From assembly GCA_937967455.1 (NCBI GenBank), contig CALCJK010000007.1, positions 62,001-126,000 of the forward strand: a stretch of 64,000 nucleotides of DNA, in the 5' to 3' direction. The position numbers and the translations under genes were made by a program. Position 1 is the first letter of the stretch, and each line of letters begins with the position of its first letter. The notes under the pieces are model-generated. The model ran no database searches, was not told the origin of the DNA, and saw nothing but the letters and a program-made list of their open reading frames with translations. This stretch comes from an uncultured bacterium. Lineage in GTDB: Bacteria; Bacteroidota; Ignavibacteria; UBA10030; BY39. Positions 29,526-47,870 of the stretch are shown here, piece by piece.

Positions 29526-32500
29526 CTATTTCAACATTACTATCTTCTTTACACTTGTAAATGAACCACTATTCATACGAACAAAGTAAATTCCACTTGG
29601 TACCAAATTATTTGACTCATTAGTACCGTTCCATTCGATTGTATGATATCCTGCTGATTTAACTTCGCTTAGTAGTGTTTTTACTTTTCGGCCAAGAATA
29701 TCATAAACAACAACATCAACTTGCGCAGCTTTTGGTACAGCAATCTCAAATTTTGTTGTTGGATTAAACGGATTCGGATAGTTCTGACTTAAAGAAAATT
29801 CTAATGGTAATGCTTCACCATTTTCAATCTTAAGTTGTAGCATTGTTAGATCAGAATTACTAATCTTTATACTGCCTTCACCTTTAAGAGGTGTAATATC
29901 CTTTTCATTAGAAGGATCTACAAGAGCAAAGTTTTTCCCATAAGCATTTGTAACATTCCATTCTATAGTAATTGGATATTCGACACTTTGTAGAATAATA
30001 TTTCGTTCCAGTGTTCCTTCAATATTTTTTGGATAAGTTTCAAGTATCCTATGAGAAGCAAATCTTACATCAAATAAAGTTGAAGGTGGAAGTGGTGGCA
30101 TTTCATAATAACTCAGGTCAATATTTCCATCTGCATCAAGTCCGAAATAAAGTATCTGACTATTACCATTCTTATCTGTAATTTTGATTGTATTAAAATT
30201 CTCAACATTTGCTAAATAACGAGCTTGCTCTTTTAAGAATAGTGATCCGCTCGTCAGGGTTAATGTTCCTGCTTGATTAACTTTGACCCAATATGCTTTA
30301 GTTGGCTGAATAGTGTTAGTTATAACATAACCATTATTATAGGCATAGAACGAACTAGCTATATTTCCAGGAGGATCGGCTGTAACAGACGATGTAGAAA
30401 TTTGCTGTGTAATTGATCCAATAAGATTCCAACCCGGTGTTACATCAATGATTAATTGATTCAATCTATTACCGAACATCCTTTGTGCAGTAGTTGCAGG
30501 GAATTTTAACCAATATCCAATACCTGGAAGGAGTGAATCTCTCTGTACATAACCATTTGAAAAGGCAAATGCATTTGAAATTGCTGTAGGATACAATGTT
30601 GTTTTTGAAGAATCTCCTGGTATAAATGGTATGGACACAAGATTCCAGCCCTGATTAAATGTATACACATTACCGGGATTAATATCAGGATCTTTTCTTG
30701 GTGTAATTTTATATTTTGCATTTCCGACAAACACAATACCTGTTAATGGCACGATACGATCCCCAACATAGAGAATTTCTTTATTTAACAATGTATCAGC
30801 CGGGAAATTAGAGTATTTTGTTTTCCCTTCTCTACGAATCAGTACATTACCGGAACCATCATTTACTAAAAATTCCCAGGGACTTGCGAATGTGGGTGAT
30901 ACATTTGTTACATTCACTGAATCGAATCTTACAAGCATACCTTCCCATTTTTCTGCGGATGGTGTGCCATCTGGAACACCTGTTTGAAATGTAGAGGTTG
31001 GTAAACTCACTGGTTCTGGAATAGGGCGATTAGTTGCAAGGATTTCTATTGGATCTCTAACATTATCAATTCTTGTTGTTGTTGCTCCACCAAAGCTAAT
31101 ATATTCATAAACTCTACCAGTTACCCGCACACTATCACCGCGTTTTGCAACAGCCAGAGTTGATTCTGGACCAACAACCCAGATACCACTCCATGGAGCA
31201 TTTCCACTTTGTATATACCAGCATGTTGTACCTTCACCTTCGCCCGGACCACCTACTCCACTAATTGTTAGATCACTTGTGTCAGCGGTAATAACACCAC
31301 TAACAGTAATACTATCAGCGCCATAATATGGAGAAATACCGTTTGCATATGGAGTATATTGGATATCCTGAATTGTCAATGGGGGATTTTTAACTGTAAA
31401 GAAGAAAAATCCCTTCGATGTATCTGAATACAACATTGGATGTGCATTTGCATAAATTGAAACATAATTTTGACCAGTTAATTCTTCGTGTGAAAATGCT
31501 TTAAAGAAATATTTTATATTAGTTCCAGCTGATTTTGGAGTAATAGTATAAGTTGCAATGGCAGTATCAGCCATTGATGGTTTCGACATTTTAAATGACT
31601 TAAATGCGGCATTGTTAGTACTGGTATAAATCAAAACACTATCAATTGGATATCCATTTTGTAATCTAATAGCTGTTACTTCAATCTTAATTGTATCCGA
31701 AGGAGTAACGAAAACTGGATATCTCCTATGAGATTGTAATCTTGGTAAATCTACTCCATAAACGATATCCCCAGGCCAAACTGGTGCTATGCGATATCCC
31801 CTTGGATTTTCAGTTCCTGCCACAGATTGCATTATGCCTCTAATTGTATCAATTCTGGAACCAACTGGTGGAACCGAAAACTGATAAGTTGTATCTTGCC
31901 TGCCAGGTACCGTTGTAAAGTATCTTGAAGCATCGTAAGTACCTATCACATCGCCATTATCATTGACCATATCAAATGTCCCACGTTCAGGATTGATAAT
32001 TGATCTAACAGTCCAATTATATAATTCAACATAATGCCATTCCCATTGTTCACCCGTTGAATATTTTATTTTACCACCAGGATAGGTCCCATGATAAAAT
32101 GGATTTGGTTCATCGGATGGAAATTTTTTCCTTTCCGGTAAAGGATAGCCCGATGCAATTATTTCAAAGTTATTAGGACTAATACTTGTTGGTAATGGTG
32201 CAAATTGAGTTGTTGTGTTCATAACGCTGCCTTGACCAGGATATAAAGGAAAATCCCAATTAAATCCATCAACTCTAACCACGTCACCTACTTCCAAATT
32301 AAACATAGCTTGATAATATTGTGAATCTGCAGCAGTGAAAGGATCACTTCCACTTCCTATTGGAGCTCTCAATACAACACAATGCCATGGTCCATTAAAT
32401 TCCTCCGGATCACTATAATATCCTGTATCTGCAAGTACAAGTGTATAGCCAAAAGCAGTGTAGTTAAAAACTTTTACAGGCACAACAACCACACCAACTA

Positions 32501-32816
32501 TGGTATAAATTGAGTCGCTATTGGTCTGGGCTGTATTACCATTCTTTGGATAGATAAAATTACCAGCTTGCAAATAATACTTACTCGGGTCTGTTAATTG
32601 AATACTATCGGCTTTTGCTAAGGAATCAGGATGATTATACTGTAATTCCTTAATAGTTTTAAACGGAAAATTTGTAGGACCAGGATTTTTATTAATCACC
32701 CTGTGTTTCTTGAAAATATCTTGTGCTTGAGAATTATTATTGAAACTTCCAAAAATTAGAAAAAAGATAAAACTCAATAGTACAATTTTTGTACTCGTGA
32801 TAACCATTTTTCTCAT
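29526..32816 (-). CDS. Large T9SS-secreted protein with OB-like and paired WNLVS/GWNLIGS modules
   Basis: The protein has 1096 residues. A signal peptide (about 1-31) is followed by beta-rich regions resembling the OB-like domains of secreted nucleases (segments with VGDVVRVDGF, GTYDASRYF and GDSVRVTGRV). I see no catalytic motif. A two-part module (about 720-870) starts NQGWNLVSIPF and ends in a GWNLIGSI half; the same pair occurs in the protein at 43974. A copy of the FG-ELPP-FDVRF module follows (about 885-985). The last about 85 residues are a type A T9SS sorting domain (NYPNPFNPTTKFE, GIYFVRM, KKIVMLK). The protein should be exported across the outer membrane and anchored or released. 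The start has an AAGGAG site. Confidence 0.85.
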   Translation of the reverse strand: MRKMVITSTKIVLLSFIFFLIFGSFNNNSQAQDIFKKHRVINKNPGPTNFPFKTIKELQYNHPDSLAKADSIQLTDPSKYYLQAGNFIYPKNGNTAQTNSDSIYTIVGVVVVPVKVFNYTAFGYTLVLADTGYYSDPEEFNGPWHCVVLRAPIGSGSDPFTAADSQYYQAMFNLEVGDVVRVDGFNWDFPLYPGQGSVMNTTTQFAPLPTSISPNNFEIIASGYPLPERKKFPSDEPNPFYHGTYPGGKIKYSTGEQWEWHYVELYNWTVRSIINPERGTFDMVNDNGDVIGTYDASRYFTTVPGRQDTTYQFSVPPVGSRIDTIRGIMQSVAGTENPRGYRIAPVWPGDIVYGVDLPRLQSHRRYPVFVTPSDTIKIEVTAIRLQNGYPIDSVLIYTSTNNAAFKSFKMSKPSMADTAIATYTITPKSAGTNIKYFFKAFSHEELTGQNYVSIYANAHPMLYSDTSKGFFFFTVKNPPLTIQDIQYTPYANGISPYYGADSITVSGVITADTSDLTISGVGGPGEGEGTTCWYIQSGNAPWSGIWVVGPESTLAVAKRGDSVRVTGRVYEYISFGGATTTRIDNVRDPIEILATNRPIPEPVSLPTSTFQTGVPDGTPSAEKWEGMLVRFDSVNVTNVSPTFASPWEFLVNDGSGNVLIRREGKTKYSNFPADTLLNKEILYVGDRIVPLTGIVFVGNAKYKITPRKDPDINPGNVYTFNQGWNLVSIPFIPGDSSKTTLYPTAISNAFAFSNGYVQRDSLLPGIGYWLKFPATTAQRMFGNRLNQLIIDVTPGWNLIGSITQQISTSSVTADPPGNIASSFYAYNNGYVITNTIQPTKAYWVKVNQAGTLTLTSGSLFLKEQARYLANVENFNTIKITDKNGNSQILYFGLDADGNIDLSYYEMPPLPPSTLFDVRFASHRILETYPKNIEGTLERNIILQSVEYPITIEWNVTNAYGKNFALVDPSNEKDITPLKGEGSIKISNSDLTMLQLKIENGEALPLEFSLSQNYPNPFNPTTKFEIAVPKAAQVDVVVYDILGRKVKTLLSEVKSAGYHTIEWNGTNESNNLVPSGIYFVRMNSGSFTSVKKIVMLK

Positions 32817-32892
32817 AACATACTCCTTTTTAAATTAATTTTGAAGTGGTTTGTTTATCTAATATACAAAATATTGAATGGAAAAAAAAGTA

Positions 32893-35016
32893 TTACTTAA
32901 TTAAAAACATTGCGTTTGTTCGCTTATAATTTGGCGTTATTAGATAGTAAAAATAAACTCCAGAGGATTTGTTAAAAGATGAGAATTCAACTTCATAATA
33001 ACCTTCATCATATTCATTGTCGGTGAGCGTTTCAATGTAGCGTCCAAGCACATCAAAAACTTTAATTTGTACACGAGTTGGTTCGAACAACTCAAATCCA
33101 ATGTAAGTGATTTCATTAAAAGGATTTGGATAGTTTTGGTAGAGTATAGGTTTTGGAATTTCAACAGGAGGAGAAGGTGGCAGAGGTTCATCGCCTCCAA
33201 GATTATAAGTCTTGAGTATCGTTCCAAACGCTCCAAATACAAGACCATTTTCAATATTCAACAATTCAACATCATAGATATTGTTGTTTGTATATGTTTT
33301 GGAAATAAACCATCTTCTTCCGCCGTTAGTAGTTTTTATAAGATAACCGTCACTACCAGCAATTAAGCCAGTTGAATCATCAATAAATTTAACTGAGTAA
33401 TAGTTTGCTTTTTTGGGTGGGCTTGGTTGAAGAGCCTGAATAGCGAGAGAATCAATTTTTAAACAATCCCCACCACAATCTGTTTTAAGTATTGTTTTAT
33501 TCGAACCTACAAACCAACCTATATCCTCATTCAAGAAGAAAACATCAAATAATTCATTTTTAAATAATGTTTCAATTTTTTGCCAACTTGTTCCACCATC
33601 AATGGTTTTATATATCAAACCAAATTTTCCTACAATCCATCCAATATTGTCGTTAATAAAAAAAATTGCATTAAGATCTGTTGTATCTTGAAAAGGTTGA
33701 ACTGCCCAGCTAAAACCATCGTCAAGTGATTTAAGAATTGTTCCTTTTGTTCCAACTGCCCAAAAAGTCTGCCCCAGTGAAAATACAGATTTTAGGTCAC
33801 GAGTTGTTGTGCCATGATTTACCGTGATCCAGCTATTTCCATTGTCATTCGATTTTATAATTGTGCCTTTTTCACCCACTACACAGATTGTGTTAGGTTG
33901 AGAGAGTTTATTTATAGCAATGGAGTATAGAAAATTTTTAACTCCGCTATTGATATCTGACCAGAATTCACCACCGTCGTATGTTTTCAGAACGGTACCA
34001 TTCTCACCCACACAGAAGCCCAATGAACCATTAACAAAAGCAGCATCATAGATACTTCTTCTTGTACCATAACCAATCATTTCCCAATTAGATCCAGCAT
34101 CTTCTGTTTTATATAGATTGATAAATTCACCAACGATCCAACCGTAAATCTTTGAGTAGAACGAAATTGATCGAAGTGTTCCTTTATATTCAATTGTATC
34201 TGCAGACCAGGTAAATCCAGAATTAGAAGTTTTAAGCAATAGACCATTTAATGTTACAGCAAATCCAGCATTAACTGAATTAAAAAAAACATCAGAAACC
34301 AAATAATTGCGAATTTGACTAAACCAGTTTTTACCACCATTCGTAGTTTTAAGAAGTACTAGATTTCCACCTATCCAACCGGTTGTATCATTAATAAAAA
34401 AAACCGTTTTTAAATTTTCTCGGGTACCGGCGAACAAAGTATCCCACTTTACACCAGAATTTGTAGTTTTAAATATTGTCCCATAATCTCCTACAATAAA
34501 ACCTAAATTCTGAGATAGAAAATGAATTTTGTTTAAATTATAAATCGCCAAATTTGGTGATCTGCTCCAGGAATTGCCACCATCAGTGGTTTTTAGTATC
34601 ACACCATTATTGCCAGTAGCATATCCATAATTTTCATTAATTAAAAATACATCATTTAACCTATCAGCTACACCACTTTTGACAAATTTTGCAGTCTCTG
34701 AACCAAGAACTTTTTTTACAATAACACCAGAATCTCCAACAGCTATAATATTGTTTCCTTTAACATATACTGCTCGTAAGGTAGATTTTGATCTATCAAT
34801 TTCAGAAGTTATAATCCAGCTCTCACCACCATCTATAGTTTCAATAATTGAACAATTAGCACCTACAGCAACTGCATTTTGATTTGAGACCGCAAAAACA
34901 TCGTAAATTGCATTCCCTTGTGGAATAGGATTTTTCCATTCCCAATTTACTTGAGAATAACCATTTAAATTTACAATAAGAAAAGTTATTATATGAATAA
35001 CACTTTTAAATTTCAT
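32893..35016 (-). CDS. T9SS-secreted Ycf48-like repeat protein
   Basis: This 707-residue protein has a signal peptide (about 1-21, ending GYSQ) followed by about 13 beta-propeller-type repeats of roughly 40-45 residues, each with a GWIVGxxG-type turn and a KTTDGGxSW motif. This is the BNR/Ycf48-like pattern. A Cys pair (DCGGDC, near residue 510) is unusual among the repeats. It ends in a type A sorting domain (NYPNPFNEITYIG, GVYFYYLI). The gene starts 8 bases after its paralogue at 35025 ends. The role is unknown; such propellers commonly bind proteins or glycans on the cell surface. Confidence 0.85.
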   Translation of the reverse strand: MKFKSVIHIITFLIVNLNGYSQVNWEWKNPIPQGNAIYDVFAVSNQNAVAVGANCSIIETIDGGESWIITSEIDRSKSTLRAVYVKGNNIIAVGDSGVIVKKVLGSETAKFVKSGVADRLNDVFLINENYGYATGNNGVILKTTDGGNSWSRSPNLAIYNLNKIHFLSQNLGFIVGDYGTIFKTTNSGVKWDTLFAGTRENLKTVFFINDTTGWIGGNLVLLKTTNGGKNWFSQIRNYLVSDVFFNSVNAGFAVTLNGLLLKTSNSGFTWSADTIEYKGTLRSISFYSKIYGWIVGEFINLYKTEDAGSNWEMIGYGTRRSIYDAAFVNGSLGFCVGENGTVLKTYDGGEFWSDINSGVKNFLYSIAINKLSQPNTICVVGEKGTIIKSNDNGNSWITVNHGTTTRDLKSVFSLGQTFWAVGTKGTILKSLDDGFSWAVQPFQDTTDLNAIFFINDNIGWIVGKFGLIYKTIDGGTSWQKIETLFKNELFDVFFLNEDIGWFVGSNKTILKTDCGGDCLKIDSLAIQALQPSPPKKANYYSVKFIDDSTGLIAGSDGYLIKTTNGGRRWFISKTYTNNNIYDVELLNIENGLVFGAFGTILKTYNLGGDEPLPPSPPVEIPKPILYQNYPNPFNEITYIGFELFEPTRVQIKVFDVLGRYIETLTDNEYDEGYYEVEFSSFNKSSGVYFYYLITPNYKRTNAMFLIK

Positions 35017-35024
35017 TCTATAAC

Positions 35025-37259
35025 TTACTTTAATAACAGCATTTTTCTAACAATCTTAAATTTGCCCAGATCATCAGTAATTCTACAGAAATACACTCCT
35101 GATGGCAAATTTGTTCCATCGAAATATACAGCGTTTCGACCCTGGAAAAAGAGTTCTTCCTTAGCCAACACAGCAACTTCCTGACCGATTGTGTTGTAAA
35201 CCTTGATTGTTACAATACTTTTTTCAGGCAAATCGAATTCTATGGTTGTAACTGGATTAAATGGATTAGGATAATTATTTGAAAAAATCTCATTTTCAAT
35301 AATCGGTTTATTCTTGCTCAATACCAAGCCACTGCCATATCTTAAAGTTACACCTTGCAGGCCGACTGCCCATACATTTGATGTATCAATTGCATATATA
35401 CCATTTAAATTTGTTCTTACTGGCGAGGGAAGATTTAACCAATTTAAGCCACCATTAGTTGTGGAAAGGAAAATACCATTTGCACCTACTATCCAACCTG
35501 TTAATGAATCAACAAACGCTACAGATTTTAATTCTTTCTTTACACCTGAATACTGCCCAAACCAGGTGTTACCACCATTTGTAGTTTTTAAAATAGTGCC
35601 ACTATTCCCGACAATCCAACCATATTTATCATCTACAAATTGTATTGAATTTAACTTAGAGTAGGTTCCAGAATATTTAATATTCCATGTATTGCCAGCA
35701 TCTGTAGTTCTAAGTATTGCACCTCGAGCACCAATTACACATCCAGTAGTATTATTAACAAATCCAATATCATACAGATTGTTTCTGAAGTTTGTTTTAA
35801 TTCTATACCAAAAATTACCGCCGTTTGTTGTTTTAAGCACAATACCACTTGATCCAACTGCAAATCCAAGATCAGGATTTACAAAATAAACTTTCTTTAA
35901 CAGACTTGTTGTACCATAATATGTATTAATCCAGGACGTCCCTCCGTCAGTTGATTTTTTAACAAGTCCGCGTTTGCCTACAACTACTATATTCATAGAA
36001 TCTATCATAAACAAGGAATTCACCTTTTGACCGATAAGAGCATATTGTAAAATCCAGTTTAATCCACCATCAGTGGTTTTATATGCTATTCCATCTTTAC
36101 CAAGTGCCCAACCATTTCTTTGATCGGAAAAATGTACAGAATAGAGGTTATCATAGTGACCTTTAGAAATTTTTATCCAGGTATCTCCACCATCTGTGGT
36201 TTTAAGAACCAAACCCTTAGCTCCACCAGCCCAGCCGTTAACTGAGTCGATAAAATAAATAGCGTCAAGCCATTCGGTTGTACCTGAATTCTGCTGGTAC
36301 CAGCTCAATCCTTTATCTAATGTTCTAATAATAGTTCCGCTCGAACCGCATGCCCAACCTCTTGCAGAGTCAATAAAATGTACATCTTCTAACCAGGAAA
36401 GTGTAGGTGAGAATGCTGAGCTCCAGGAACTACCACCGTTTGTTGTAATTCTTATAGTACCACCCTTACCTACTGCAACAGCACGATAAGGTGTAAGTAC
36501 CTTAACATCCATCAAAGTTTGTGAGGTACCAGAGTTCTGTTGTGTCCAGAGTGTTCCACCATTTGTGGTAGCGAATATTTTACCCGAATCCCCAACTGCA
36601 AAACCAAGATTTGAATTTATAAAATCAATACCGAATAATCTCACTGGTGAAAGCACAAATTGAGTTGACCAGCTGTTTCCACCATCACTTGTCCTATAAA
36701 CCATACCAGCATATCCAGCAGCCCAACCATTATTTTCGTCTAAAAATTTTAATCTAAAGAGTGGAATACCACTTCTAACAATTAGTTTATTCCAGTTGTT
36801 TCCGCCATCTGTTGTTTTAAGGAGTATTCCTCCTAATCCAGTAGCAAATCCTGTATTGTCATTCACAAATGTTATATCGTATAATGTAGAATTAGTTAGC
36901 CCGATACCAAATTTTAAATCCCATAGTTGTCCATTATCTGAGGATCTAAGAATAGAAGACATTGGTGTCGAGAGGAAAACATTTCCATTTGGTGTTGCAC
37001 ATAATCCATATATTGTATTATTTGTCGGGAACGGATTTTGGAATGCCCAGAATTTTTCTGATGAATCATAAAATATAATTAGTTCTTCAAATTCTGTTAG
37101 ATTCGCTGGATGGTTGTCGAAAATCGACGAATCTATATTTTCATATATTTCATCGTCATCATCGACTTCTAAGCTATCAATACCCTGTGCAAAAAGTTGA
37201 TTAACGATTAAGGTAAATAATACTATAAAAGATATATATTTAAATATTAATGTTTTCAT
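35025..37259 (-). CDS. T9SS-secreted Ycf48-like repeat protein (paralogue)
   Basis: The protein has 744 residues. A signal peptide (about 1-25) and an acidic linker (about 28-50, DDDDEIYENID) precede about 13 Ycf48-like repeats with GWAAGxxG turns and KTTDGGxxW motifs. A type A sorting domain closes it (NYPNPFNPVTTIEF, GVYFCRI, RKMLLLK). It is clearly paralogous to the next gene and probably arose by tandem duplication. It begins 15 bases after the usher-like gene, so it belongs to the same transcript as the chaperone-usher genes. It could be a surface partner of the pilus or an independent cargo (inference). Confidence 0.85.
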   Translation of the reverse strand: MKTLIFKYISFIVLFTLIVNQLFAQGIDSLEVDDDDEIYENIDSSIFDNHPANLTEFEELIIFYDSSEKFWAFQNPFPTNNTIYGLCATPNGNVFLSTPMSSILRSSDNGQLWDLKFGIGLTNSTLYDITFVNDNTGFATGLGGILLKTTDGGNNWNKLIVRSGIPLFRLKFLDENNGWAAGYAGMVYRTSDGGNSWSTQFVLSPVRLFGIDFINSNLGFAVGDSGKIFATTNGGTLWTQQNSGTSQTLMDVKVLTPYRAVAVGKGGTIRITTNGGSSWSSAFSPTLSWLEDVHFIDSARGWACGSSGTIIRTLDKGLSWYQQNSGTTEWLDAIYFIDSVNGWAGGAKGLVLKTTDGGDTWIKISKGHYDNLYSVHFSDQRNGWALGKDGIAYKTTDGGLNWILQYALIGQKVNSLFMIDSMNIVVVGKRGLVKKSTDGGTSWINTYYGTTSLLKKVYFVNPDLGFAVGSSGIVLKTTNGGNFWYRIKTNFRNNLYDIGFVNNTTGCVIGARGAILRTTDAGNTWNIKYSGTYSKLNSIQFVDDKYGWIVGNSGTILKTTNGGNTWFGQYSGVKKELKSVAFVDSLTGWIVGANGIFLSTTNGGLNWLNLPSPVRTNLNGIYAIDTSNVWAVGLQGVTLRYGSGLVLSKNKPIIENEIFSNNYPNPFNPVTTIEFDLPEKSIVTIKVYNTIGQEVAVLAKEELFFQGRNAVYFDGTNLPSGVYFCRITDDLGKFKIVRKMLLLK

Positions 37260-37274: not shown

Positions 37275-39917
37275 TTATTTTGGTTTTAATATAAAGCTTG
37301 TAGATACAAAACCTTCTTCCGGCTTTCCAGTTATTTCAAGTTCCTGTCTATCAGGTTCTGATATCAAATCAAATGCTCGGAGCGATTCTTCATCCACAAA
37401 TACTTGATAAATACCAGGTGGTACAGTTGGAAACTCAAACTCTCCTTGCGAATTAGTCACGGTAATTTTTCTAATTTTACCTGCTTTAGATAACTTTATA
37501 GTAACACCACCTACAGGATTTCCAGATTCATCAACCACAACTCCATTGATTATACCACCAGTAACAATTGGTATATCAATTCTTTTTAATTTATTAGGTT
37601 CAGATTTTATAGTTATACCTTCGTATAATGGAACTAAAAGAGGATCATCTAAATCAATAGTTCTAACTTTTAAAATATAATCACGGTATAATTCACCTGA
37701 TATTAGATAATTATAATCACTATATTTTCTAGAATATGGAACTCCAAATCCGGCCTTCAGCTGACCAGAAATACGAATATCTTTGAGATATTGTTCACCT
37801 TTATCTTTAATTCCATTTCTATTTAGATCAATAAATGCGGAATTTAAGAAATAACCTCTTTTCCTTTGTGTAATTCTGTTAAAAAGTAAATCGAATGTCT
37901 GTGTTGAACCAATCACTTCACCGCGGATACTTGCAGAATAAGTATTACCGAAATTTCCTTTAATCATTGAAAGCGCAGCGCTAAAATAACTGGGATTGAA
38001 AGTTAAATTGAGAAACGCAAAAATATCATTAGTAATGAAATTTTTTTCTGTAACGAGATTCAAGGCAAGTGATGAAATAAATGAAATAGTTATTCCAATC
38101 TGTACCGTTTTTAATCGGTTAACAACATGATCAAACCTGGCGCCAGCAAATATATTTGAAAAGACAGTTGGATTTGTAGATACATTCAACAAACTTTCGA
38201 TATATTTTGTTTTAAATGTTTTATCTATATCTCTATATTCTTCTTCATCTGTATCTTCATTATAGAATAGTTCTCTTATTAAATACGTTGTACTGGATAA
38301 ATATCTTGAAAATGAATAGTTAACTGATAGGCCTTTAAAAATACTTCCGAATCCAAATCTTAAGAATTGTTCATCACCTTTTTCCAGAAGGTTTTGGTCA
38401 AAGTTAGCATTCAAATAATTTGCAGTAATAGTTGTTGTAAATGGATAATGTATACTTGCACCATACGAATTTGTAATATTTCTTGGATTCAATATTTTAT
38501 TTTTGTTGTGTATAGAATACCTTACATTAAATATTTTCTGATCGTGTGTTTGCCAGTTTAAATTTGCTCTTCCCAGCACAAAAGGTGAGAATTCAGCATT
38601 GGCATACAAGTTATTATATAGCCGAACCGTTGTATAAGTATAGGGGAATATTTTATCTTTTAGATTTTCTCTGTTAAGATATTCAACACCTGCTCCTAAA
38701 GTGATGTGTTGTGTTGCACCATATCTTAAATCTCCAGATGAATAGACAGGATAATTTTTTATTCGAAGAACGCCACCTGATAATCTATAATCTAATTCGC
38801 CCGGAGGAATCATTGTATATGGAATAATCATATAGCTAGTTTTTAATTGTTCTTGGCCGTACCAGTCATAAAATCTTTCGGTAATTTCATTGTATCCGAA
38901 ATATAGTGTCATAGGTGTTTCGATAGCGGTATCTCTTTCAGTAAAAGTATAAACAGGCGGAATTCCTCTTCCAGTCAGATAATATTCACTTAAAGCATTA
39001 ACATTAGATTTTACAACATAAGAACTGAAAACACTTCTCCTCTCAGGAGGTATATTTGTAATATCGATACCAAATAAATTTCCTCCAACAAAAGATCTTT
39101 TATATATATCACCAAATGTAATTTGTTGTAAATATCGATTATCGAAGAAAGGATATTTTATCGAGCCTTGAACATCTCTTTCTTTAATTTTTTTATTTAA
39201 TGCACCACGAATTGAACCTTCAAAATCACCCCATAAAAATTGCCCACCAAGTAAAAGGTTATATCGTGTATAGATATCTTTATTTTGAAGTTTATATGAA
39301 TTTATATTGTAATTTAATTTACCCAGGTTTAATGGTAGCGGTTTTCGACCGATATATAAATCGGAAACAATAATTTCTCTCTCGACCTGTCTGCGATAGT
39401 TCCTTTGGCGCTGTCTTTGCTGAATGAATGGAAATGGAGATTTACTTTTCAGCACCACCTCCAACCTGTTTTCATCAAACTTTATATTCCACTTAAACAG
39501 GTCCCTAAATATTCGCTCATGAATAAAAACTTTTTCTTTAATTCTGTAATAATCGACACTTCTGAAATTGATAAAATTATTTTTATACCTTGCTTGATTG
39601 GTTTCAAAATTAATATCAAAAGTTGAATCCTTTGAAACTATAAACCCCTGTAAATAATTTTTATCAAAATTCAACTCGTATTTTAATCTTAGAAAATCAA
39701 AGATGTCGGTAATTGGTAAATAGACATCTTTATCCCTCTTTAGTATTGTTATCTCAATTCGTCCAATTCTTGTTTCAAAAAAATCAACAATAAGTGTATC
39801 AATATTTTTAGTTGATACTTGTGAATACGCACTATCAATCTTTATAAAAAAGAATATTGCACAAATAAGAGATAACCCTGATAATATTTTTTGATACCCC
39901 TTCCCATTGAATATCAT
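37275..39917 (-). CDS. Outer-membrane usher-like protein
   Basis: The protein has 880 residues. A signal peptide (about 1-33) is followed by an N-terminal periplasmic domain (about 40-155) that includes a copper-amine-oxidase-N-like half (LPITDIFDFLRLKYELNF). A long run of amphipathic strands with alternating aromatic residues (about 190-680) fits a large outer-membrane beta-barrel. A turn with DLNRNGIKDKGE comes next, and a carboxypeptidase-regulatory-like beta sandwich ends the protein (about 790-860, GVVVDESGNPVGGVTI). This is the layout of divergent ushers. No TonB box or plug domain is visible. It overlaps the chaperone gene by one base (TAATG), strong support for co-function. Confidence 0.75.
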   Translation of the reverse strand: MIFNGKGYQKILSGLSLICAIFFFIKIDSAYSQVSTKNIDTLIVDFFETRIGRIEITILKRDKDVYLPITDIFDFLRLKYELNFDKNYLQGFIVSKDSTFDINFETNQARYKNNFINFRSVDYYRIKEKVFIHERIFRDLFKWNIKFDENRLEVVLKSKSPFPFIQQRQRQRNYRRQVEREIIVSDLYIGRKPLPLNLGKLNYNINSYKLQNKDIYTRYNLLLGGQFLWGDFEGSIRGALNKKIKERDVQGSIKYPFFDNRYLQQITFGDIYKRSFVGGNLFGIDITNIPPERRSVFSSYVVKSNVNALSEYYLTGRGIPPVYTFTERDTAIETPMTLYFGYNEITERFYDWYGQEQLKTSYMIIPYTMIPPGELDYRLSGGVLRIKNYPVYSSGDLRYGATQHITLGAGVEYLNRENLKDKIFPYTYTTVRLYNNLYANAEFSPFVLGRANLNWQTHDQKIFNVRYSIHNKNKILNPRNITNSYGASIHYPFTTTITANYLNANFDQNLLEKGDEQFLRFGFGSIFKGLSVNYSFSRYLSSTTYLIRELFYNEDTDEEEYRDIDKTFKTKYIESLLNVSTNPTVFSNIFAGARFDHVVNRLKTVQIGITISFISSLALNLVTEKNFITNDIFAFLNLTFNPSYFSAALSMIKGNFGNTYSASIRGEVIGSTQTFDLLFNRITQRKRGYFLNSAFIDLNRNGIKDKGEQYLKDIRISGQLKAGFGVPYSRKYSDYNYLISGELYRDYILKVRTIDLDDPLLVPLYEGITIKSEPNKLKRIDIPIVTGGIINGVVVDESGNPVGGVTIKLSKAGKIRKITVTNSQGEFEFPTVPPGIYQVFVDEESLRAFDLISEPDRQELEITGKPEEGFVSTSFILKPK

Positions 39918-40744
39918 TATTGAATCCTAAAATTATATTTCCAGCTCTTTGGTTCTGTTTTAATTACAAATTTAGCTGCATCGTCATATCGTTTTGGTTC
40001 GGCTATCACATTCAATATATAATCTCCATGTGTTAAATCTTTGATATCCACAATAAAATCGCGCTTAATTTCTTTATAGACAACAAAATGTCGCCATTCT
40101 TTCTTGACTAATTTACCACTTTTATCAGTAATCATAAAATTAAACATACCCCAATAAGAACTATTTCCACCCCGAAACATATTGATTTTAAAATGAAGTT
40201 TACCATCTTTTATTTCAATAACTGGATTTCCCATTGTATCAAATGTTGTAGTTAATTTACCTTTACGATAATGAAAAGGGATAGATAGTTGTTGTTGTAT
40301 ATCAAATCCAATTCTTGCACCTGATGGATTCTCTTTTATTTTTAATTGTCTCCCAATTTGTTTGGAATTCACAATAACTCTTGCCCAGTATTCTCCATCG
40401 CTTATACCAGCAGGTGGACTTACCATAACGCGCACAATTTTCTTCTCATTTGGTTTTAGTACCATTTTTGTAGGATAAGTAGTTATCCATTCTGATGCAG
40501 ATTTATCATCACCCGATAATTTTTCGGGTGTTGCAATTACTAACCTGTTTGAATCATCAGTAGCTGTATAGCCATATTTTAATTCAAACCATACTTCTAT
40601 CTCATTGTTAGTAGAGTTAGAAATTTCCAAGGCTGCTGAGCGTTTTGGTTCATTTATAAACAATACTGTGGGGGATACTCTGACATATGAGTAAAGATTT
40701 ACTGTTAGTAAAAAGATAAAAAGTATTAATACTAATTTTTTCAT
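39917..40744 (-). CDS. PapD-like periplasmic chaperone
   Basis: This 275-residue protein has a signal peptide (about 1-18). Two Ig-like domains follow in the order of fimbrial chaperones: RVSPTVLFINEPKRSAALEISN with an N-terminal Arg and an Asn-rich turn, then VLKPNEKKIVRVMVSPP and DGEYWARVIV at the F-G region. The second domain (about 155-265) is beta-rich and ends WKYNFRIQ. It should bind the secreted subunit and pass it to the usher-like protein encoded next. It is more diverged than PapD, consistent with an alternative or archaic type. The start lies 107 bases after the subunit stop. Confidence 0.8.
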   Translation of the reverse strand: MKKLVLILFIFLLTVNLYSYVRVSPTVLFINEPKRSAALEISNSTNNEIEVWFELKYGYTATDDSNRLVIATPEKLSGDDKSASEWITTYPTKMVLKPNEKKIVRVMVSPPAGISDGEYWARVIVNSKQIGRQLKIKENPSGARIGFDIQQQLSIPFHYRKGKLTTTFDTMGNPVIEIKDGKLHFKINMFRGGNSSYWGMFNFMITDKSGKLVKKEWRHFVVYKEIKRDFIVDIKDLTHGDYILNVIAEPKRYDDAAKFVIKTEPKSWKYNFRIQ

Positions 40745-40792
40745 CTAATTTATAAAATTTTGCTAGTTATTAAGCGTTTATGATTACAAGAA

Positions 40793-40827
40793 CGGTGCTT
40801 TAACCATAAATATATGTTAAAGCACCG
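40793..40827 (-). other. Stem-loop between pilin-like and chaperone genes
   Basis: Arms CGGTGCTTTAAC (40793-40804) and its exact complement (40816-40827) form a perfect 12-base-pair stem with an 11-base loop. No T run follows on the minus strand, so it is not a standard terminator. Stem-loops after the subunit gene protect that part of the transcript in pap-like operons; the same job is plausible here. Confidence 0.8.
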
Positions 40828-40851
40828 CTCAATATTTTTAAGTTTTAAATA

Positions 40852-41421
40852 TTAGAAACTAGTAAATGATGCTGTTACAACCATTAATCCTTGGTAGTCA
40901 ACGCCAGGCATTACATCCATTGGGACAGTAATGATCATTTCTGGTGAGAATGAGAATGCATCAACACCAGCTGGGAGTTGGAATTCAAATGTTGGGATTG
41001 TCTTTGGTTGTGCATCTGCATCAAGTCCACCAACATATGCCCATGCTTTTGGATATTCTACAAATACTGCACCAGGACCATCATAGCTCAACAGTTTTGT
41101 TGGAAGATATTGGAAATTGATTAATACATTTGCGCCTGGAACTGCGGTGCAAACGAAATCAGTATAATCATCAGGATCCATTAATGCATCAGGCTGATTG
41201 TTCATATCAACATATTGCCATGCACCATCAGCAATATTTGGGAATACATGGTATGTTGAACCTTGACGTAATGTTGCAAATGCATAGCTACCTGGATCAA
41301 GGGTTAAACCACCTTCAATTGTAACTATCACTGGTGCATATGCTGTGGCAGTTGGGGTTTGAGCATTTACCATTAATGCTGCAAACAGCAATACTACTAA
41401 GGAAAACATTAAGCGTTTCAT
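40852..41421 (-). CDS. Small secreted pilin-like subunit (DUF4402-like)
   Basis: The protein has 189 residues. A signal peptide (about 1-20, ending VNAQ) is followed by an N-terminal strand of alternating hydrophobic residues (TATAYAPVIVTIEGG), which could act as a donor strand, and a beta-rich body. The C-terminal strand MVVTASFTSF has alternating hydrophobics and a terminal aromatic, the pattern recognised by PapD-like chaperones. The layout resembles DUF4402-type fimbrial subunits. It is the first gene of the chaperone-usher operon and has a strong promoter and a long leader. Only one subunit gene is seen, so the fibre may be a homopolymer (inference). Confidence 0.72.
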   Translation of the reverse strand: MKRLMFSLVVLLFAALMVNAQTPTATAYAPVIVTIEGGLTLDPGSYAFATLRQGSTYHVFPNIADGAWQYVDMNNQPDALMDPDDYTDFVCTAVPGANVLINFQYLPTKLLSYDGPGAVFVEYPKAWAYVGGLDADAQPKTIPTFEFQLPAGVDAFSFSPEMIITVPMDVMPGVDYQGLMVVTASFTSF

Positions 41422-41598: not shown

Positions 41599-41627
41599 AT
41601 TATAATATTTTTGAATTACAAAGTCAA
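41599..41627 (-). promoter_or_regulatory. Sigma70-type promoter of the chaperone-usher operon
   Basis: On the minus strand TTGACT (41622-41627) and a perfect TATAAT (41599-41604) are separated by exactly 17 bases. This is among the best promoter matches in the window and points at the pilin-like gene through the leader. Confidence 0.82.
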
Positions 41628-41643
41628 GTTTTAAAAATTAAAC

Positions 41644-41687
41644 ATGTCATTCTGAGCTTAGATTCTTCGCTTCGCTCAGAATGACAT
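41644..41687. repeat. Inverted repeat (TGTCATTCTGAG-type dispersed element)
   Basis: Arms of 14 bases (41644-41657 and 41674-41687, ATGTCATTCTGAGC with exact complement) close a 16-base loop with TTCTTCGCTTC. It directly follows the stop codon of the gene at 41696. I recognise the wording CATTCTGAGCGAAGCGAAGAATCT as a dispersed palindrome seen in many unrelated bacterial genomes. On the minus strand it is followed by a T-rich stretch and could end transcription. Confidence 0.8.
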
Positions 41688-41695
41688 TGTAAAAA

Positions 41696-43846
41696 TCACT
41701 TCATTAATACCATTTTCTTCATTAGCTGGGTAGTTGCACCGGTCTCAATTCCCTTAGCAACTAAACGATAGAAATAAATACCTGAAGACAAATTACTTGC
41801 ATCAAATGTAACAGATTCAGCACCATACATCATCTCTTCATTGTCTATCAATGTCGCTACTTCCTGTCCAATCATATTGTAAACCTTCAACGAAACAATA
41901 GCATCCTCAGGTAAATTGAATTCTATTGTTGTTGTCGGGTTGAATGGATTTGGATAGTTTTGATATAATACAAATGCTTCCGGAATTTCAGGTGCAACTG
42001 GCGGTGGAACTGCTATGGCTTTCAATGTACTTCTTCTTAAGAAAGGAACTTCAGATAATGTCTTTGTACCTGTTAATTCTAACTTCGTTCCAAAGCTAAC
42101 TGTATCTAGATCACCGCTAAATGAACCATTAATCGCAGCTACAACATCGTTCAAATTGCTATAATCAAATCCATCATCCTTTGTTGTCATCTTTGGATCT
42201 GCAAGTGCAACTATTTGATTTATAGTTAAACCATGCAATTCATTTCCAGGATTCCAGTAAATCAATTCGCCAAATCCATTAGGTGTATTTCCCTGTTGAC
42301 TTGCTGCAATATTGAATTTAAGCGCAACAAGGTTTGCTAGTAATACATTGTTAGCCTTTGAAGGTGGAGCTGCTTTGAGCAATTTTACCCATGGTTTTCC
42401 ACCAAATGTTTCAAGTGCTCCTGGTGATCCTGTATGTACATTACCTTTTTCCCACAATGTTTTCCACATATCCTTATATGTTAACATTTTCAATTTTCCA
42501 GTTCCTATTTCTATACCGGATGATGGGAAAATCTCGGCTGCAACATTACCATATGTTGGCATAGGTAGACGTGGTTGGTTCAATTTCCACAATGGTGATG
42601 TCACATCCACAGTATTCTTAACTGGTTTTGCTGCTGGTAACCACCAGTATTTTGCCTTTACCTGCTTACCTTTTGCACCATATGCATGAATATTTATTAT
42701 ATCACCATTTTCTAATTCATCTGTAAATGTATAATCAAACTTCTTGTTCTTTCCATCAATTGCACCAGCAAGTGTATAATCAACACCAGCAGTGAGTGTT
42801 ACACCATTTTTCTTAACAACATGTGGGAACGCTGGCAATATTGCCGCACCTTCAAAATGTAATTGATTATATCCATCGGCAGGTACTGTTAACTCCAACT
42901 CAAATTCAACTTTATCAGGTTTACGTTTAATAATCTTTTGTAACTTACCACCAGTTGTAGTAACAAGTTCTGTATGTGTAAATGATCTAAAACTACCTGG
43001 ATCACCACCAGTTCCAGTTAATGTTATAATCGTAGTCCAGCTACCAGCATTGTGTTTTAATGTAACAGTTGCATTTTTTGGACCAGGTGAAGTTGGATTT
43101 AAAGTTATCGTCAAATCGTATGATTCAGAAGGCAGTATTGTTAAAGGTCCAGTCGTGCTTAATTCATATTCTGTATTTGTTGTTGTAATTGAACTTATCT
43201 CTAAGTCACCGTTCCCGGTATTTTGAATTGTGAATGTTTTTGATACTGGAGAACCGATAAACACCGTACCATAAGCCCAGCTTAATGGATCTACAACAAT
43301 AACTGGTTTTTTTTCTGTACGTACAATTCTAATTTCTAATCCAGCATTTAAATCCTCACTGGCAGGGATTTCATATTCATATGTATAAAGCATATTTACG
43401 AATACTTCTGGCTCGCCAGCGGGAAATTCCATCTTTAATGTTCCTGATGTTAAATTCAGGTCAGAAGGCCAAGAGATTAAAATAGAACGGGCTGGGACCT
43501 CATATGTTGGTTTTACAAAAAACTTCCAAATAGTTTGATCGCCACCTGTTGTTGAACGGAAATCTTTTCTTGAACCTTTACCAATATTTTCACCACTAAT
43601 ACTTAGAAACCGAGTATCAAATGGTCCTTCTCCAGGTGGGCTTGGAGGGAGTTCAGCTTCACCCAATGCTGGATCAATATACAATGTAGCATCTGAATGT
43701 AAACCAAAATAAATAGTATCTGAGAGCAAACCATCCGTTACATAAATTGGCGCTTGAAACTGAGTTAACTGTCCATACAGTGATTGGCTGAGTATAAGGG
43801 AAAAGACCAAAACACCGAGGATTGTAAACCATTTTTGTTTTTTCAT
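41696..43846 (-). CDS. T9SS-secreted protein with ASPM/Hydin-like domain
   Basis: The frame is open from 43966, but the ATG at 43846 opens a proper signal peptide (MKKQKWFTILGVLVFSLIL) after a GTGAGG site, giving 716 residues. Order: the FG-ELPP-FDTRF module (about 30-150), an ASPM/SPD-2/Hydin-like Ig domain (about 195-285, PLSWAYGTVFIGSPVSKTF), a module of about 300 residues also found in the protein at 51836 (about 310-620), and a type A sorting domain (NYPNPFNPTTTIEF, MKKMVLMK). The shared module has no function I can name. It lies downstream of the gene at 43974, 127 bases apart. Confidence 0.83.
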   Translation of the reverse strand: MKKQKWFTILGVLVFSLILSQSLYGQLTQFQAPIYVTDGLLSDTIYFGLHSDATLYIDPALGEAELPPSPPGEGPFDTRFLSISGENIGKGSRKDFRSTTGGDQTIWKFFVKPTYEVPARSILISWPSDLNLTSGTLKMEFPAGEPEVFVNMLYTYEYEIPASEDLNAGLEIRIVRTEKKPVIVVDPLSWAYGTVFIGSPVSKTFTIQNTGNGDLEISSITTTNTEYELSTTGPLTILPSESYDLTITLNPTSPGPKNATVTLKHNAGSWTTIITLTGTGGDPGSFRSFTHTELVTTTGGKLQKIIKRKPDKVEFELELTVPADGYNQLHFEGAAILPAFPHVVKKNGVTLTAGVDYTLAGAIDGKNKKFDYTFTDELENGDIINIHAYGAKGKQVKAKYWWLPAAKPVKNTVDVTSPLWKLNQPRLPMPTYGNVAAEIFPSSGIEIGTGKLKMLTYKDMWKTLWEKGNVHTGSPGALETFGGKPWVKLLKAAPPSKANNVLLANLVALKFNIAASQQGNTPNGFGELIYWNPGNELHGLTINQIVALADPKMTTKDDGFDYSNLNDVVAAINGSFSGDLDTVSFGTKLELTGTKTLSEVPFLRRSTLKAIAVPPPVAPEIPEAFVLYQNYPNPFNPTTTIEFNLPEDAIVSLKVYNMIGQEVATLIDNEEMMYGAESVTFDASNLSSGIYFYRLVAKGIETGATTQLMKKMVLMK

Positions 43847-43936
43847 GATAACCTCACTTATTTGTTTTTTAATTGGGTTAATTATTTGATTTAATTTAAC
43901 AGATTTCATTTTATAAAGCAAATTATTATTTAGGTA

Positions 43937-43963
43937 CTGCTGGAAGGAGCAACCCTCCAGCAG
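43937..43963 (-). other. Stem-loop downstream of the 1298-residue protein gene
   Basis: In minus-strand RNA the arms pair over 11 positions with one G-U pair and a UUGCU loop. The pairing is complete only in the minus-strand transcript. It starts 10 bases after the stop codon and has no T run, so it may be a 3' end stabiliser or a factor-assisted terminator. Confidence 0.65.
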
Positions 43964-43973
43964 CACAATAAAA

Positions 43974-46900
43974 TTACTTCATCATTATTGCTTTCTTTAC
44001 AGAGGAGAACCCATCACTTGTCATCTTTACAAAGTATACACCGCTTGGGACTAGTTCACCTCTTGAATTGGTACCGTTCCACTCAATTGAATGATATCCA
44101 GCACTCTTTACTCCATCAAACAAAGTAGCAACTTTGCTTCCAAGAATGTCGTACACTGCAATTTCAACACGAGATGTTTTTGGTACAGCAAATTCAAACT
44201 TGGTTGATGGGTTGAATGGGTTAGGATAGTTCTGGCTGAGGTTGAACTCAACAGGAACATTGTCCATAGTACCAACTTTCAAAGCAATATTCGATACATT
44301 TGGATTATCTATCTTCAAAGCACCCTTATCAGAATTCATAACATAGGTCTTTTCACCAACCTGTATTGCAAAACTCTTTGTCCTGCTCACAAGTTGATAC
44401 TCTACTGTAACTGGGAAGGATGCAGAATTAATTCTTATATTGTATTCTGCATTCTTATCTGCTGGATAAGCTTCAAGCATTCTCTGAGAAGCATAGCGGA
44501 CATCAAACATACCTTCTGGTGCACTTGGTGGTAATTCAAAGAAGTCAACCGGGAATTTACCATCATTTTCACCAAAGTATAATGTTTGTTTATTTCCAGC
44601 TTTATCAGTAATGATTAATTTATTGAATGCAGAAATATCTGGCATCTGGTATTCAGCATTGCGCTTTGCTGTTGCAGAAATAACAAGATTACCAGCACTA
44701 CCAGCTTTTATCCAGTATGCTTTACCTGGTTGAATTATATTGGATACCACATAACCACCACTGTATGCATAGAAAGGAGAACCAGCACCACCAGGTACAG
44801 TAACACTAGAAGCTGCAACAGCTGTGCTAATTGAACCAATCATATTCCATCCAGCCTGAACTGGAATATTGAGGTTATTTATACCGGAACCATAAATTTC
44901 AACTGTTTGAGCAGCATTGAATTTTAACCAGTAACCAGGTCCAGGACCAAGCGTACTTTCAACCACATATCCTGTTCCGGGTACATACTTAAATGCATTA
45001 GAAACAGATGTTGGGAATAGAGAAGATTTCGGACCAGTTATCTGCACCGGTACGGAGACCATATTCCAGAGATTATCCACTGAGAATGTTCCACCAGGAA
45101 CCGAAGGCACACATACTGCGCGCATTACAAACCTACCTTCGACATTACCACCAGGTTCACCAATTAGAACATTTCTGGTTGGCTGCCATAGAGCTGTAGG
45201 ATCTTCTTCCCACACTTTTGCACTATCTTCTGTAAAGTAACTTGTAATTGCTCTATGATTATCAGGTATCCATGGAATACTTGGTTCATAATAATCCCAA
45301 CCTGCTGGGAATACACTCCTACGTGAAAATTGTATTCCAGCCCAGAAATCCTGTCCTTCAGCAAATTGAATTCCATCACCATCACCTACTGGTAGCGACA
45401 TCCATCTACCATTTGTGGTTATATAATCATCACCTGAGAATTTCTTTCTCCAGAGTATCGGACCGGGACTTGAATCTGTACCTGCAGCCCAAACATATAG
45501 TATAATTGAATCTGGATAAGTAACGCCCTGATATGAGTTAGAATAAATTGCATCCAGATTCATTAGCTTAATATCAGTTGGTGCAGTATAGCGAACTGCT
45601 GCACAGATTGCTGAATCTTGATGGTCACGACCCCAGAATGAATCAGCTAAATCGTTGGAGTCATCATAAGTGATCGTGAAGGCGTAAGCTGGATATGCTC
45701 GCCCATAGAAAATTGTACTATCATTTAACCTTACCATATCTTCAGGTAAATCTACCCAAATTCTATAGAAATATGTTCCTCTTTCCGTTACAGGGAAGGA
45801 CAATACGACAGAGTCAAATTGTGCATAAGAGAGACCACCTCGACCTACTGGTGTCTGAGTTGCCCCACGAACTGACCACCTTAATGTATAAGGACCATGT
45901 GCATAACTACCAATATTTCTTACCTTTACTTGAACCTGTATATTTGGCATAGGTGGAGCTTTAGGCGCAATTGTATTCAGTTGTTTCACTTCCCATATCG
46001 CAAGATCATATTCTTTCGCAATATCTATTGTCTTTGTTCCAAGATCATTATCAGCATCTTCATCACCAGCATAAAATGCTTTTACATAAACTTTGAAATC
46101 TCCGCTTGCTGTTGGAGATACAGTTTGTGTAAATCTCAGTGTAGCAAATTTCCCATTCCAGGTTATACCTGTGAAGGTTTCAGAGGTGCCATCACCAGAG
46201 TGTGCAGGTTCGGAACCAACTTTGTATGTTAATGGTACACTTGATGGATTTGCCTCTACTCCACCATTGAAAATGGTTACAATAACTGTTTCTGGTACTC
46301 CAATTGCATGTATACCAGTATAGTTTTTAAGATCAACACCAACAACGGCAATGTCTTTTTGTGGCTTGTAATCTGTATTAACCTTTAAGAACTTCAAAGT
46401 AGTTAGCGAAACTGGACGACCATCACCAAATGCCGCGGCACCAGGTATATTATCTTCCATAAATGCAAGATATAACCAGTTACTGTCGTTAATAACTGGA
46501 TTAATTGTTGATACCGCCACATATCTTTCATCAAGGTCGGTTGTTTTGGTAACATTCTTTACATCAGCCCATGTTAAGCCACCATCATCAGTGTATGTAT
46601 AGATAACATCACTATAATGCCAACCGCCACTTGGTGTTGATTGATATACACCTTCTAAAAATGCATCGCAAGCTAAAAATAATCTTGTTTCAGTTGAGTT
46701 TTTACCAAGTGCAGGATATGTAAATGGCCATGCATGGTTTACTTGAGAACTATCATTAGGTAATGTTCTCATCATTAGTGGGAAATTATTGCTATCAATT
46801 GCCACAAAGGTAGCCTGTGAATTTGCATTGAATAACTCAATACGATTTGATCTATAGTAGAAATTACCATCATCTGCAGCGGGTATTGTTGTATATGCAA

Positions 46901-47870
46901 TGTAAAGTGTGTCACCTAAGTAAATTGCATCTAAGCCACCCCAATATATCGCCTTCTGACCTGCTACTGCTCCTGCGACAACTTGTGGTGTACTCCATGT
47001 TTGACCGTTATTCGTTGATTCAACATAAAAAACCGTGTCAGTAGTTGCACCTGCACCAATTCTGTGCCAGGCAAGTGCAACCTTACCTGATGGACCAACC
47101 GCTAGAGCATAACGACCACCAGCTGCATCAATTGTATCAATAGGAGCCCAGTTTGAGAAATTACCGAGGACATCATATGTTACAACTCCCAAATCATCTG
47201 CAGTTGAACGGCTTGCTGCCATAATTGTATTACCATTTGAAGAAACTGCAATGTGTGGCCATATTGGTTCATCAGTTGGATTTGGATCCCATGGATCTGG
47301 CGTAAAACCTTCTGTAAATTGTCTACCACCCTCAGATGCATCAAAATAAAGGTAACTTGCAAGTGAACCATCACCATCCGGATCAGCATGGTTAGCAATA
47401 ACTGCTGGATAGCCAGGAATGCCAATATATGGGTTTAATGTCATTGACGGGAAACCAGATCGCACAGATGGTACGGTTGCTGGAGCTGAAGTCCATGTTG
47501 CCCCACCATTTGAACTAAAATTATATCTTGTACGTCTAGTTGGACTAGTATTATTTGGATCTGTGGATATCATCATAATCGCATGTACTTTACTTGGATC
47601 AGTGGGATTCATTTCCAGATAATCAATCGATCCACCATTACTTTGATAGTCGTAATAACCAGAAATATTTGTTGAAACGCCAGCGGCATTGGCAGGAGCA
47701 ATATAAGGTGGAGGTTCCTGCTTATTGTTAGAAATTGGAAATTTCCCTTGTTCCTTGGGCATTAATTTAGGATTTTCTGGCAATACTTTTGTGTTCAGAG
47801 CTTGTTGTGCTGCCACAAAATTACCTAAAATAAACGCCAGAACAATTGAAACGATTACTATTCTCTTCAT
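43974..47870 (-). CDS. Large T9SS-secreted BNR/sialidase-like repeat protein
   Basis: The protein has 1298 residues. A signal peptide (about 1-22, ending VAAQ) is followed by a six-bladed-propeller-like region with Asp-box type motifs (SSNGGATW, STNNGQTW, TDDGGLTW; about 60-480), as in exo-sialidase-like folds but without visible catalytic Arg triad or Tyr-Glu pair. Next come CARDB-like Ig domains (about 500-720), a jelly-roll-like part, the paired WNLVS/GWNLIGS module (about 930-1065), an FG-ELPP-FDVRY module (about 1080-1190) and a type A sorting domain (NYPNPFNPSTKFEF, KKAIMMK). It resembles the protein at 29526 over its last 370 residues. It is probably a surface binding protein. Confidence 0.85.
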   Translation of the reverse strand: MKRIVIVSIVLAFILGNFVAAQQALNTKVLPENPKLMPKEQGKFPISNNKQEPPPYIAPANAAGVSTNISGYYDYQSNGGSIDYLEMNPTDPSKVHAIMMISTDPNNTSPTRRTRYNFSSNGGATWTSAPATVPSVRSGFPSMTLNPYIGIPGYPAVIANHADPDGDGSLASYLYFDASEGGRQFTEGFTPDPWDPNPTDEPIWPHIAVSSNGNTIMAASRSTADDLGVVTYDVLGNFSNWAPIDTIDAAGGRYALAVGPSGKVALAWHRIGAGATTDTVFYVESTNNGQTWSTPQVVAGAVAGQKAIYWGGLDAIYLGDTLYIAYTTIPAADDGNFYYRSNRIELFNANSQATFVAIDSNNFPLMMRTLPNDSSQVNHAWPFTYPALGKNSTETRLFLACDAFLEGVYQSTPSGGWHYSDVIYTYTDDGGLTWADVKNVTKTTDLDERYVAVSTINPVINDSNWLYLAFMEDNIPGAAAFGDGRPVSLTTLKFLKVNTDYKPQKDIAVVGVDLKNYTGIHAIGVPETVIVTIFNGGVEANPSSVPLTYKVGSEPAHSGDGTSETFTGITWNGKFATLRFTQTVSPTASGDFKVYVKAFYAGDEDADNDLGTKTIDIAKEYDLAIWEVKQLNTIAPKAPPMPNIQVQVKVRNIGSYAHGPYTLRWSVRGATQTPVGRGGLSYAQFDSVVLSFPVTERGTYFYRIWVDLPEDMVRLNDSTIFYGRAYPAYAFTITYDDSNDLADSFWGRDHQDSAICAAVRYTAPTDIKLMNLDAIYSNSYQGVTYPDSIILYVWAAGTDSSPGPILWRKKFSGDDYITTNGRWMSLPVGDGDGIQFAEGQDFWAGIQFSRRSVFPAGWDYYEPSIPWIPDNHRAITSYFTEDSAKVWEEDPTALWQPTRNVLIGEPGGNVEGRFVMRAVCVPSVPGGTFSVDNLWNMVSVPVQITGPKSSLFPTSVSNAFKYVPGTGYVVESTLGPGPGYWLKFNAAQTVEIYGSGINNLNIPVQAGWNMIGSISTAVAASSVTVPGGAGSPFYAYSGGYVVSNIIQPGKAYWIKAGSAGNLVISATAKRNAEYQMPDISAFNKLIITDKAGNKQTLYFGENDGKFPVDFFELPPSAPEGMFDVRYASQRMLEAYPADKNAEYNIRINSASFPVTVEYQLVSRTKSFAIQVGEKTYVMNSDKGALKIDNPNVSNIALKVGTMDNVPVEFNLSQNYPNPFNPSTKFEFAVPKTSRVEIAVYDILGSKVATLFDGVKSAGYHSIEWNGTNSRGELVPSGVYFVKMTSDGFSSVKKAIMMK

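Follow-up and report, generated by a model that had tools for sequence, protein, structure and literature searches.

In the classical chaperone-usher pathway (FimC-FimD, PapD-PapC) a chaperone with two immunoglobulin (Ig) domains is paired with a 24-strand usher whose plug lies between strands 6 and 7; FimD is built as a 24-stranded barrel, a plug, an N-terminal domain (NTD) and two C-terminal domains (CTDs) (PMC12122975). Two other branches are described, the archaic (sigma) pathway, for example Csu of Acinetobacter, and the alternative (alpha) pathway, represented by EcpB-EcpC and CfaA. A TCDB-based survey of outer-membrane pore families reported fimbrial ushers in Proteobacteria, Spirochaetes, Cyanobacteria and Deinococcus-Thermus, Bacteroidetes not being listed (PMC4827864), and the assembly of Bacteroidetes fimbriae has been called very poorly known (PMC5789003). 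Our literature search joining chaperone-usher with Bacteroidetes or Bacteroidota found no account of such a system, most subscription journals lying outside its coverage. DUF4402 was not mentioned in the literature searched, where coverage of subscription journals was thin, so an earlier description is possible. We analysed a 64,000-nucleotide stretch of an uncultured Ignavibacteria bacterium (contig CALCJK010000007.1, positions 62,001 to 126,000; hereafter the window), in which three minus-strand genes encode, in this order, a small subunit, a PapD-like chaperone and an 880-residue outer-membrane barrel. We conclude that this module is a chaperone-usher pathway, that it forms its own branch, is common in Bacteroidota and has been overlooked by standard annotation. 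The gene order, the chaperone fold with its anchor residue, the usher fold with plug, the barrel and plug homology, the DUF4402 relation and a conserved hairpin were computed here. The gene set very probably builds hair-like surface fibres on the principle of E. coli type 1 pili, fibre formation being something we infer. The three genes are:

40852-41421, minus strand: pilin-like secreted subunit, DUF4402-related, 189 aa (open reading frame; candidate donor-strand N-terminal extension; C-terminal strand)
39917-40744, minus strand: PapD-like two-domain periplasmic chaperone, non-classical type (Pro91, Arg122), 275 aa
37275-39917, minus strand: outer-membrane usher, 880 aa

The original prediction had described a canonical gene order with a one-base overlap between chaperone and barrel in an Ignavibacteria-type genome, and all of this held. 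The open reading frame coordinates place a single base in both the chaperone stop and the usher start (TAATG), and the nearest named relative is a genus-mate, Ignavibacteriae bacterium BY39, whose barrel is 87% identical. The subunit-chaperone-usher order is also that of the archaic pathway. It is kept among homologues across the order and the phylum, so we regard the three open reading frames as real genes. Each protein begins with a hydrophobic signal-like stretch, and each gene is present in one copy in the 99%-complete genome. Direct Pfam and NCBIfam searches with the three window proteins returned only a C-terminal CarboxypepD_reg match and weak PapD_N/WxLIP matches. Of the family profiles proposed as a check, PapD_N was recovered weakly for the chaperone; the usher and DUF4402 families had no direct match. 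Searches of PDB sequences, both single and profile, found no usher or chaperone, only chance matches or the C-terminal domain.

We used an alignment of 22 usher homologues (A1) both for an AlphaFold2 model of the usher and for a sequence profile. The model had a mean predicted local distance difference test score (pLDDT) of 87.8. DSSP assigned to it a signal helix, an N-terminal domain (residues 39-155), six barrel strands (195-286), a six-strand insert (295-364), eighteen more barrel strands (374-670) and C-terminal beta domains (676-879). The modelled barrel thus counts 24 strands, and its plug sits between strands 6 and 7 as in classical ushers; a plugged 24-strand barrel had been predicted. 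The parts of the usher map as follows:

39453-39803, minus strand: usher residues 39-155, N-terminal periplasmic domain; some homologues resemble Cu_amine_oxidN1 here
37908-39335, minus strand: usher residues 195-670, 24-strand barrel including the plug insert
38826-39035, minus strand: usher residues 295-364, plug between strands 6 and 7 (from the model)
37281-37892, minus strand: usher residues 676-879, C-terminal region, carries a DxNxNGxxDxGE motif and a CarboxypepD_reg domain

When the model was compared with the PDB by Foldseek, the top 18 matches were all FimD or PapC (E 1.5e-26 to 8e-13), and the next class reached only 1e-9 or worse. VIA-align 2 (VIA) gave Z 22.1 against 3ohn_A (root-mean-square deviation (rmsd) 3.2 over 356 residues), with 17 for the best TonB receptor; classical ushers are thus the best matches among solved structures. 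The C-terminal beta domains could be structurally aligned to FimD as far as residue 877. A carboxypeptidase-regulatory-like C-terminus had been proposed and was found (CarboxypepD_reg PF13620, E 1.1e-10 in Pfam). The copper-amine-oxidase-like N-terminus fared less well: PF07833 (Cu_amine_oxidN1) matched 6 of the 22 homologues but not the window usher itself. The DxNxNGxxDxGE motif of the C-terminal part occurred in none of the 14 known ushers compared.

Predicted barrels look alike, and usher homology was therefore tested from sequence alone. In profile-profile comparisons the full A1 alignment matched five classical ushers with E 3.5e-14 and six archaic ushers with 5e-12, on a scale where known classical and alternative ushers match each other at 2.7e-9. 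Restricted to barrel and plug, the values were 1.9e-13 for classical, 2.2e-11 for archaic and 2.4e-3 for alternative ushers. Reversed templates, 20 column shuffles each, FhuA, FepA and LptD served as controls, and every decoy gave E > 0.1. On these profiles, the barrel and plug of the window protein are homologous to those of known ushers. The Pfam Usher model PF00577 did not match the window usher and matched 2 of the 22 homologues (best E 0.01); this miss reflects the limited reach of the Pfam model and is not a structural criterion of the pathway.

The AlphaFold2 model of the chaperone (pLDDT 89.8) matched PapD-like chaperones across both domains, in agreement with the two-domain PapD-like protein originally proposed; a failure to match PapD-like folds, named beforehand as a refuting outcome, did not occur. 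VIA placed WxL-interacting protein (WxLIP), CsuC, SfaE, FimC, Caf1M and EcpB at Z 12-14. MSP/ASH Ig domains, a common fold, were also listed, and for this reason Z alone was not counted as proof. With signal peptides removed, the chaperone profile matched archaic chaperones best (6.2e-9), followed weakly by alternative (1.1e-5) and classical FimC-type chaperones (1.7e-3). In the hhalign alignment, Pro91 and Arg122 fell on Pro80 and Arg109 of the EcpB precursor, which are Pro60 and Arg89 of the mature protein after a 20-residue signal. Pro60 of EcpB is the proline invariant across the chaperone superfamily, and Arg89 is the characteristic anchor of the subunit carboxylate in non-classical chaperones (PMC4654587). 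Among the 22 sequences of our chaperone alignment (A2), Pro91 was present in all, and position 122 was Arg in 19 and Lys in 3. The classical anchors Arg8 and Lys112 were absent at the aligned sites and unconserved among the homologues. By alignment, then, the chaperone is nearest to archaic chaperones and carries the non-classical anchoring arginine, Arg122, which it has in common with both archaic and alternative chaperones. The Gram-positive WxLIP (9i1y, 9i25) was the best structural match of the model, a hint, at the level of models, that WxLIP and pilus chaperones descend from one ancestor.

DUF4402 (PF14352), the family proposed for the subunit, had no direct match in the window protein but matched 12 of 27 homologous subunits (best 9.9e-11). 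When signal peptides were removed, the profile of the clade of the window subunit matched the DUF4402-positive set at 2.4e-11, with a reversed decoy at 0.48. On this profile link through its homologues, the window subunit is probably a diverged DUF4402-family protein. Its N-terminal extension aligns with an alternating segment of the DUF4402 set and is a candidate donor strand, and its C-terminal strand follows the pattern of that set, with G-x-D-Y-x-G close to the end. Archaic subunits have a similar-looking layout (N-terminal extension, C-terminal Y-containing strand) but belong to SCPU (PF05229), which had no match in the window and matched one of the 27 homologues at E 0.04. A profile match to archaic subunits (2.4e-7) was driven by signal peptides, fell to 0.023 once these were cut, and was not used. 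No SCPU tip gene lies 3' of the window usher, in contrast to the archaic pathway, and the subunits of the alternative pathway also differ.

We compared 27 neighbourhoods of homologues and searched the barrel against 100 relatives; 36 of these were matched at E <= 1e-3, the match lying within the barrel in about 25. A near-full-length usher, defined as a match at E <= 1e-120 and counted per genome, was found in 44 of 296 genomes from the phylum; a tally of 174 of 296 was rejected as inflated by CarboxypepD_reg-only matches. One to four DUF4402-type subunits adjoin the barrel in 15 of 20 distant loci, nearly all with a chaperone too, and two of the remaining five loci are cut by contig ends. The barrel and chaperone also occur on two proteobacterial plasmids. 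That of Polaromonas sp. JS666 is annotated as DUF4402, hypothetical, DUF4402, 'fimbria/pilus periplasmic chaperone' and 'carboxypeptidase-like regulatory domain-containing protein'; that of Pseudoalteromonas sp. Bsw20308 has a small upstream gene without a DUF4402 match. In a tree of 58 ushers (unrooted, made by a quick method and with long branches) the 44 DUF4402-type sequences lay on one side of a branch with a Shimodaira-Hasegawa-like approximate likelihood ratio (SH-aLRT) support of 99, which separates them from the classical, archaic and alternative sequences. Together with the profile distances, this supports the suggestion of a distinct clade.

Gene content varies between the families of this clade. 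A single subunit, as predicted, is found in the window locus and its close relatives, but other families have two to four. In the f4 and f6 loci two or three small subunits are followed by chaperone and barrel, and the second subunit seems to begin straight at the first strand, without the N-terminal extension; we would expect such a protein to fit a tip subunit. At 240-3896 of another locus (G205:C1), two chaperone genes alternate with two DUF4402-type subunits ahead of a single usher of about 1500 aa, an arrangement that looks like one chaperone per subunit. In family f33 loci (L117-L122, L129) one DUF4402 subunit adjoins the chaperone, separated by a gap on either side, and three more subunits usually lie upstream; long extensions at the C-terminus bring the ushers to as much as about 1550 aa. 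The usher-like barrels of L131 and L133 (G342, G258) adjoin a protein of about 520 aa, with no DUF4402 match and no adjacent chaperone match, and sit on a very long tree branch (2.68); they may have another role.

A further conserved element lies between the subunit and chaperone genes:

40790-40830, minus strand: 18-bp RNA hairpin, candidate attenuator or mRNA-protecting element

The 107-nt gap containing it folds at -27.4 kcal/mol (z -5.6). Gaps with z of -2.7 or lower were found in 13 of 14 loci of the window's own family (f1) and the next one (f2), and in 8 of 9 distant loci tested. The hairpins differ in stem sequence and often end in a U-rich tail, as intrinsic terminators typically do. 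In f4/f6 loci it is instead the first subunit that has the hairpin on its 3' side, and 5 of the 6 tested reached z -3.2 or lower. An Rfam search had no match anywhere within the window. By stopping or processing the transcript behind the major subunit gene, a conserved signal of this kind would hold subunit levels above those of chaperone and usher.

Several observations weigh against a chaperone-usher assignment. Whole-chain TM-scores to known ushers and chaperones were moderate, about 0.4-0.6. Profile comparison with known ushers detected no homology for the usher NTD (E at least 0.46) or CTDs (E at least 0.003), and neither region could be aligned to archaic ushers. The subunit profile, with signal peptides removed, had no significant match among known pilins, and no tip adhesin was recognisable in the genome. 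Taking all evidence together, we nevertheless hold it highly probable that the module represents a separate, DUF4402-type branch of the chaperone-usher pathway, assembling a homopolymer by donor-strand exchange. For this pathway we infer strand exchange, plug gating, secretion, a fibre and a role in adhesion or biofilm. The Sec-exported subunit would fold on the chaperone in the periplasm, the chaperone donating its G1 strand and Arg122 holding the C-terminal carboxylate of the subunit. The complex would then dock at the usher N-terminal domain, and at the pore the N-terminal extension of the incoming subunit would displace the chaperone strand. A thin homopolymer of one subunit type would grow through the 24-strand barrel once the plug has moved, and the hairpin would lower or uncouple expression of chaperone and usher, giving a large subunit excess.

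In another reading, what the usher exports is not a discrete pilus: the DUF4402 subunit would form a capsule-like coat of the F1 antigen kind or leave the cell as short oligomers. Chaperone-usher systems with a single subunit and a capsule-like product have precedents (F1/Caf1), and the single subunit gene and the missing adhesin of this genome would fit one. The related families with two to four subunits speak against it, as the apparently extension-less subunit in one of them suggests a tip-plus-shaft design in the clade, and we consider a coat possible but unlikely here. Much less credible is that the chaperone is a WxLIP-like cell-wall adaptor. Pfam WxLIP_PGBD did match it (E 3.6e-4), WxLIP structures top both its Foldseek and VIA lists, and the two-domain Ig protein of Gram-positive WxL/WxLIP pairs has the same overall fold. 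PapD-type chaperones, however, were near-equal (Z within about 1) with lower rmsd, the gene sits between those of a pilin-like subunit and an usher, and WxLIP belongs to Gram-positive walls, in pairs that lack an usher. A reading of the barrel as TonB-dependent receptor, LptD-like protein or porin, with the PapD-like protein as a generic Ig adaptor, is extremely improbable on Foldseek, VIA and sequence profiles, and we reject it: generic barrels do reach VIA Z 15-17 and TonB receptors of Bacteroidota often carry CarboxypepD_reg domains, but Foldseek gave such barrels E of about 1e-5 or worse against 1e-26 for ushers, profile E was 0.15-0.36 for FhuA, FepA and LptD, no TonB plug family was matched, and the CarboxypepD_reg-like domain is C-terminal in the window usher but N-terminal in TonB receptors. 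Neither a TonB-dependent receptor nor a plugless barrel, the refuting outcomes set for structure prediction, was obtained.

A chaperone-usher module that is conserved and testable in Bacteroidota would extend the pathway to a dominant phylum, assign a function to DUF4402, correct the naming of its ushers, now labelled 'carboxypeptidase-like regulatory domain-containing protein', and supply an outgroup for deciding which parts of the usher cycle are ancestral. We lean slightly towards a broader view, in which this is a further major branch beside the classical, archaic and alternative ones, widespread in Bacteroidota, that has kept the plugged barrel while its NTD and CTD parts for recruiting and handover are unrelated or unrecognisably diverged, and that in Ignavibacteria is genetically tied to surface proteins secreted by the type IX secretion system (T9SS). 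If so, the usher cycle could be tested with different recruiting and handover parts.

The neighbouring genes bear on the tie to T9SS proteins:

43974-47870, minus strand: T9SS-tailed protein, conserved upstream cassette member
41696-43966, minus strand: choice-of-anchor D protein with T9SS tail, encoded upstream of the subunit
35025-37259, minus strand: YCF48-type propeller with T9SS tail, directly 3' of the usher, kept in f1/f2 loci
32893-35016, minus strand: second YCF48-type propeller with T9SS tail

The f1/f2 cassette consists of two T9SS-tailed proteins, subunit, chaperone, barrel and two YCF48-type T9SS-tailed propellers. The T9SS-tailed protein immediately before the subunit has a homologue in all f1/f2 loci with a flank on that side; f4 and f6 loci are without the cassette. 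This co-conservation of the immediate neighbours with the operon suggests that T9SS cargo and the putative fibre are functionally connected in f1/f2. On a larger scale the operon is embedded in a minus-strand series of genes for surface proteins with T9SS tails, at 29526-37259 and 41696-56722; YCF48 propellers, choice-of-anchor D, fn3 and SdrD_B are represented there.

Upstream of the subunit gene we also noted a promoter-like sequence:

41599-41627, minus strand: TTGACT-17-TATAAT, weak, no commoner than in shuffles

An inverted repeat, TGTCATTCTGAGCGAAGCGAAGAATCTAAGCTCAGAATGACA, precedes the subunit gene on the minus strand (window 41640-41690), and its core has one exact copy and three copies with 2 mismatches in the genome.

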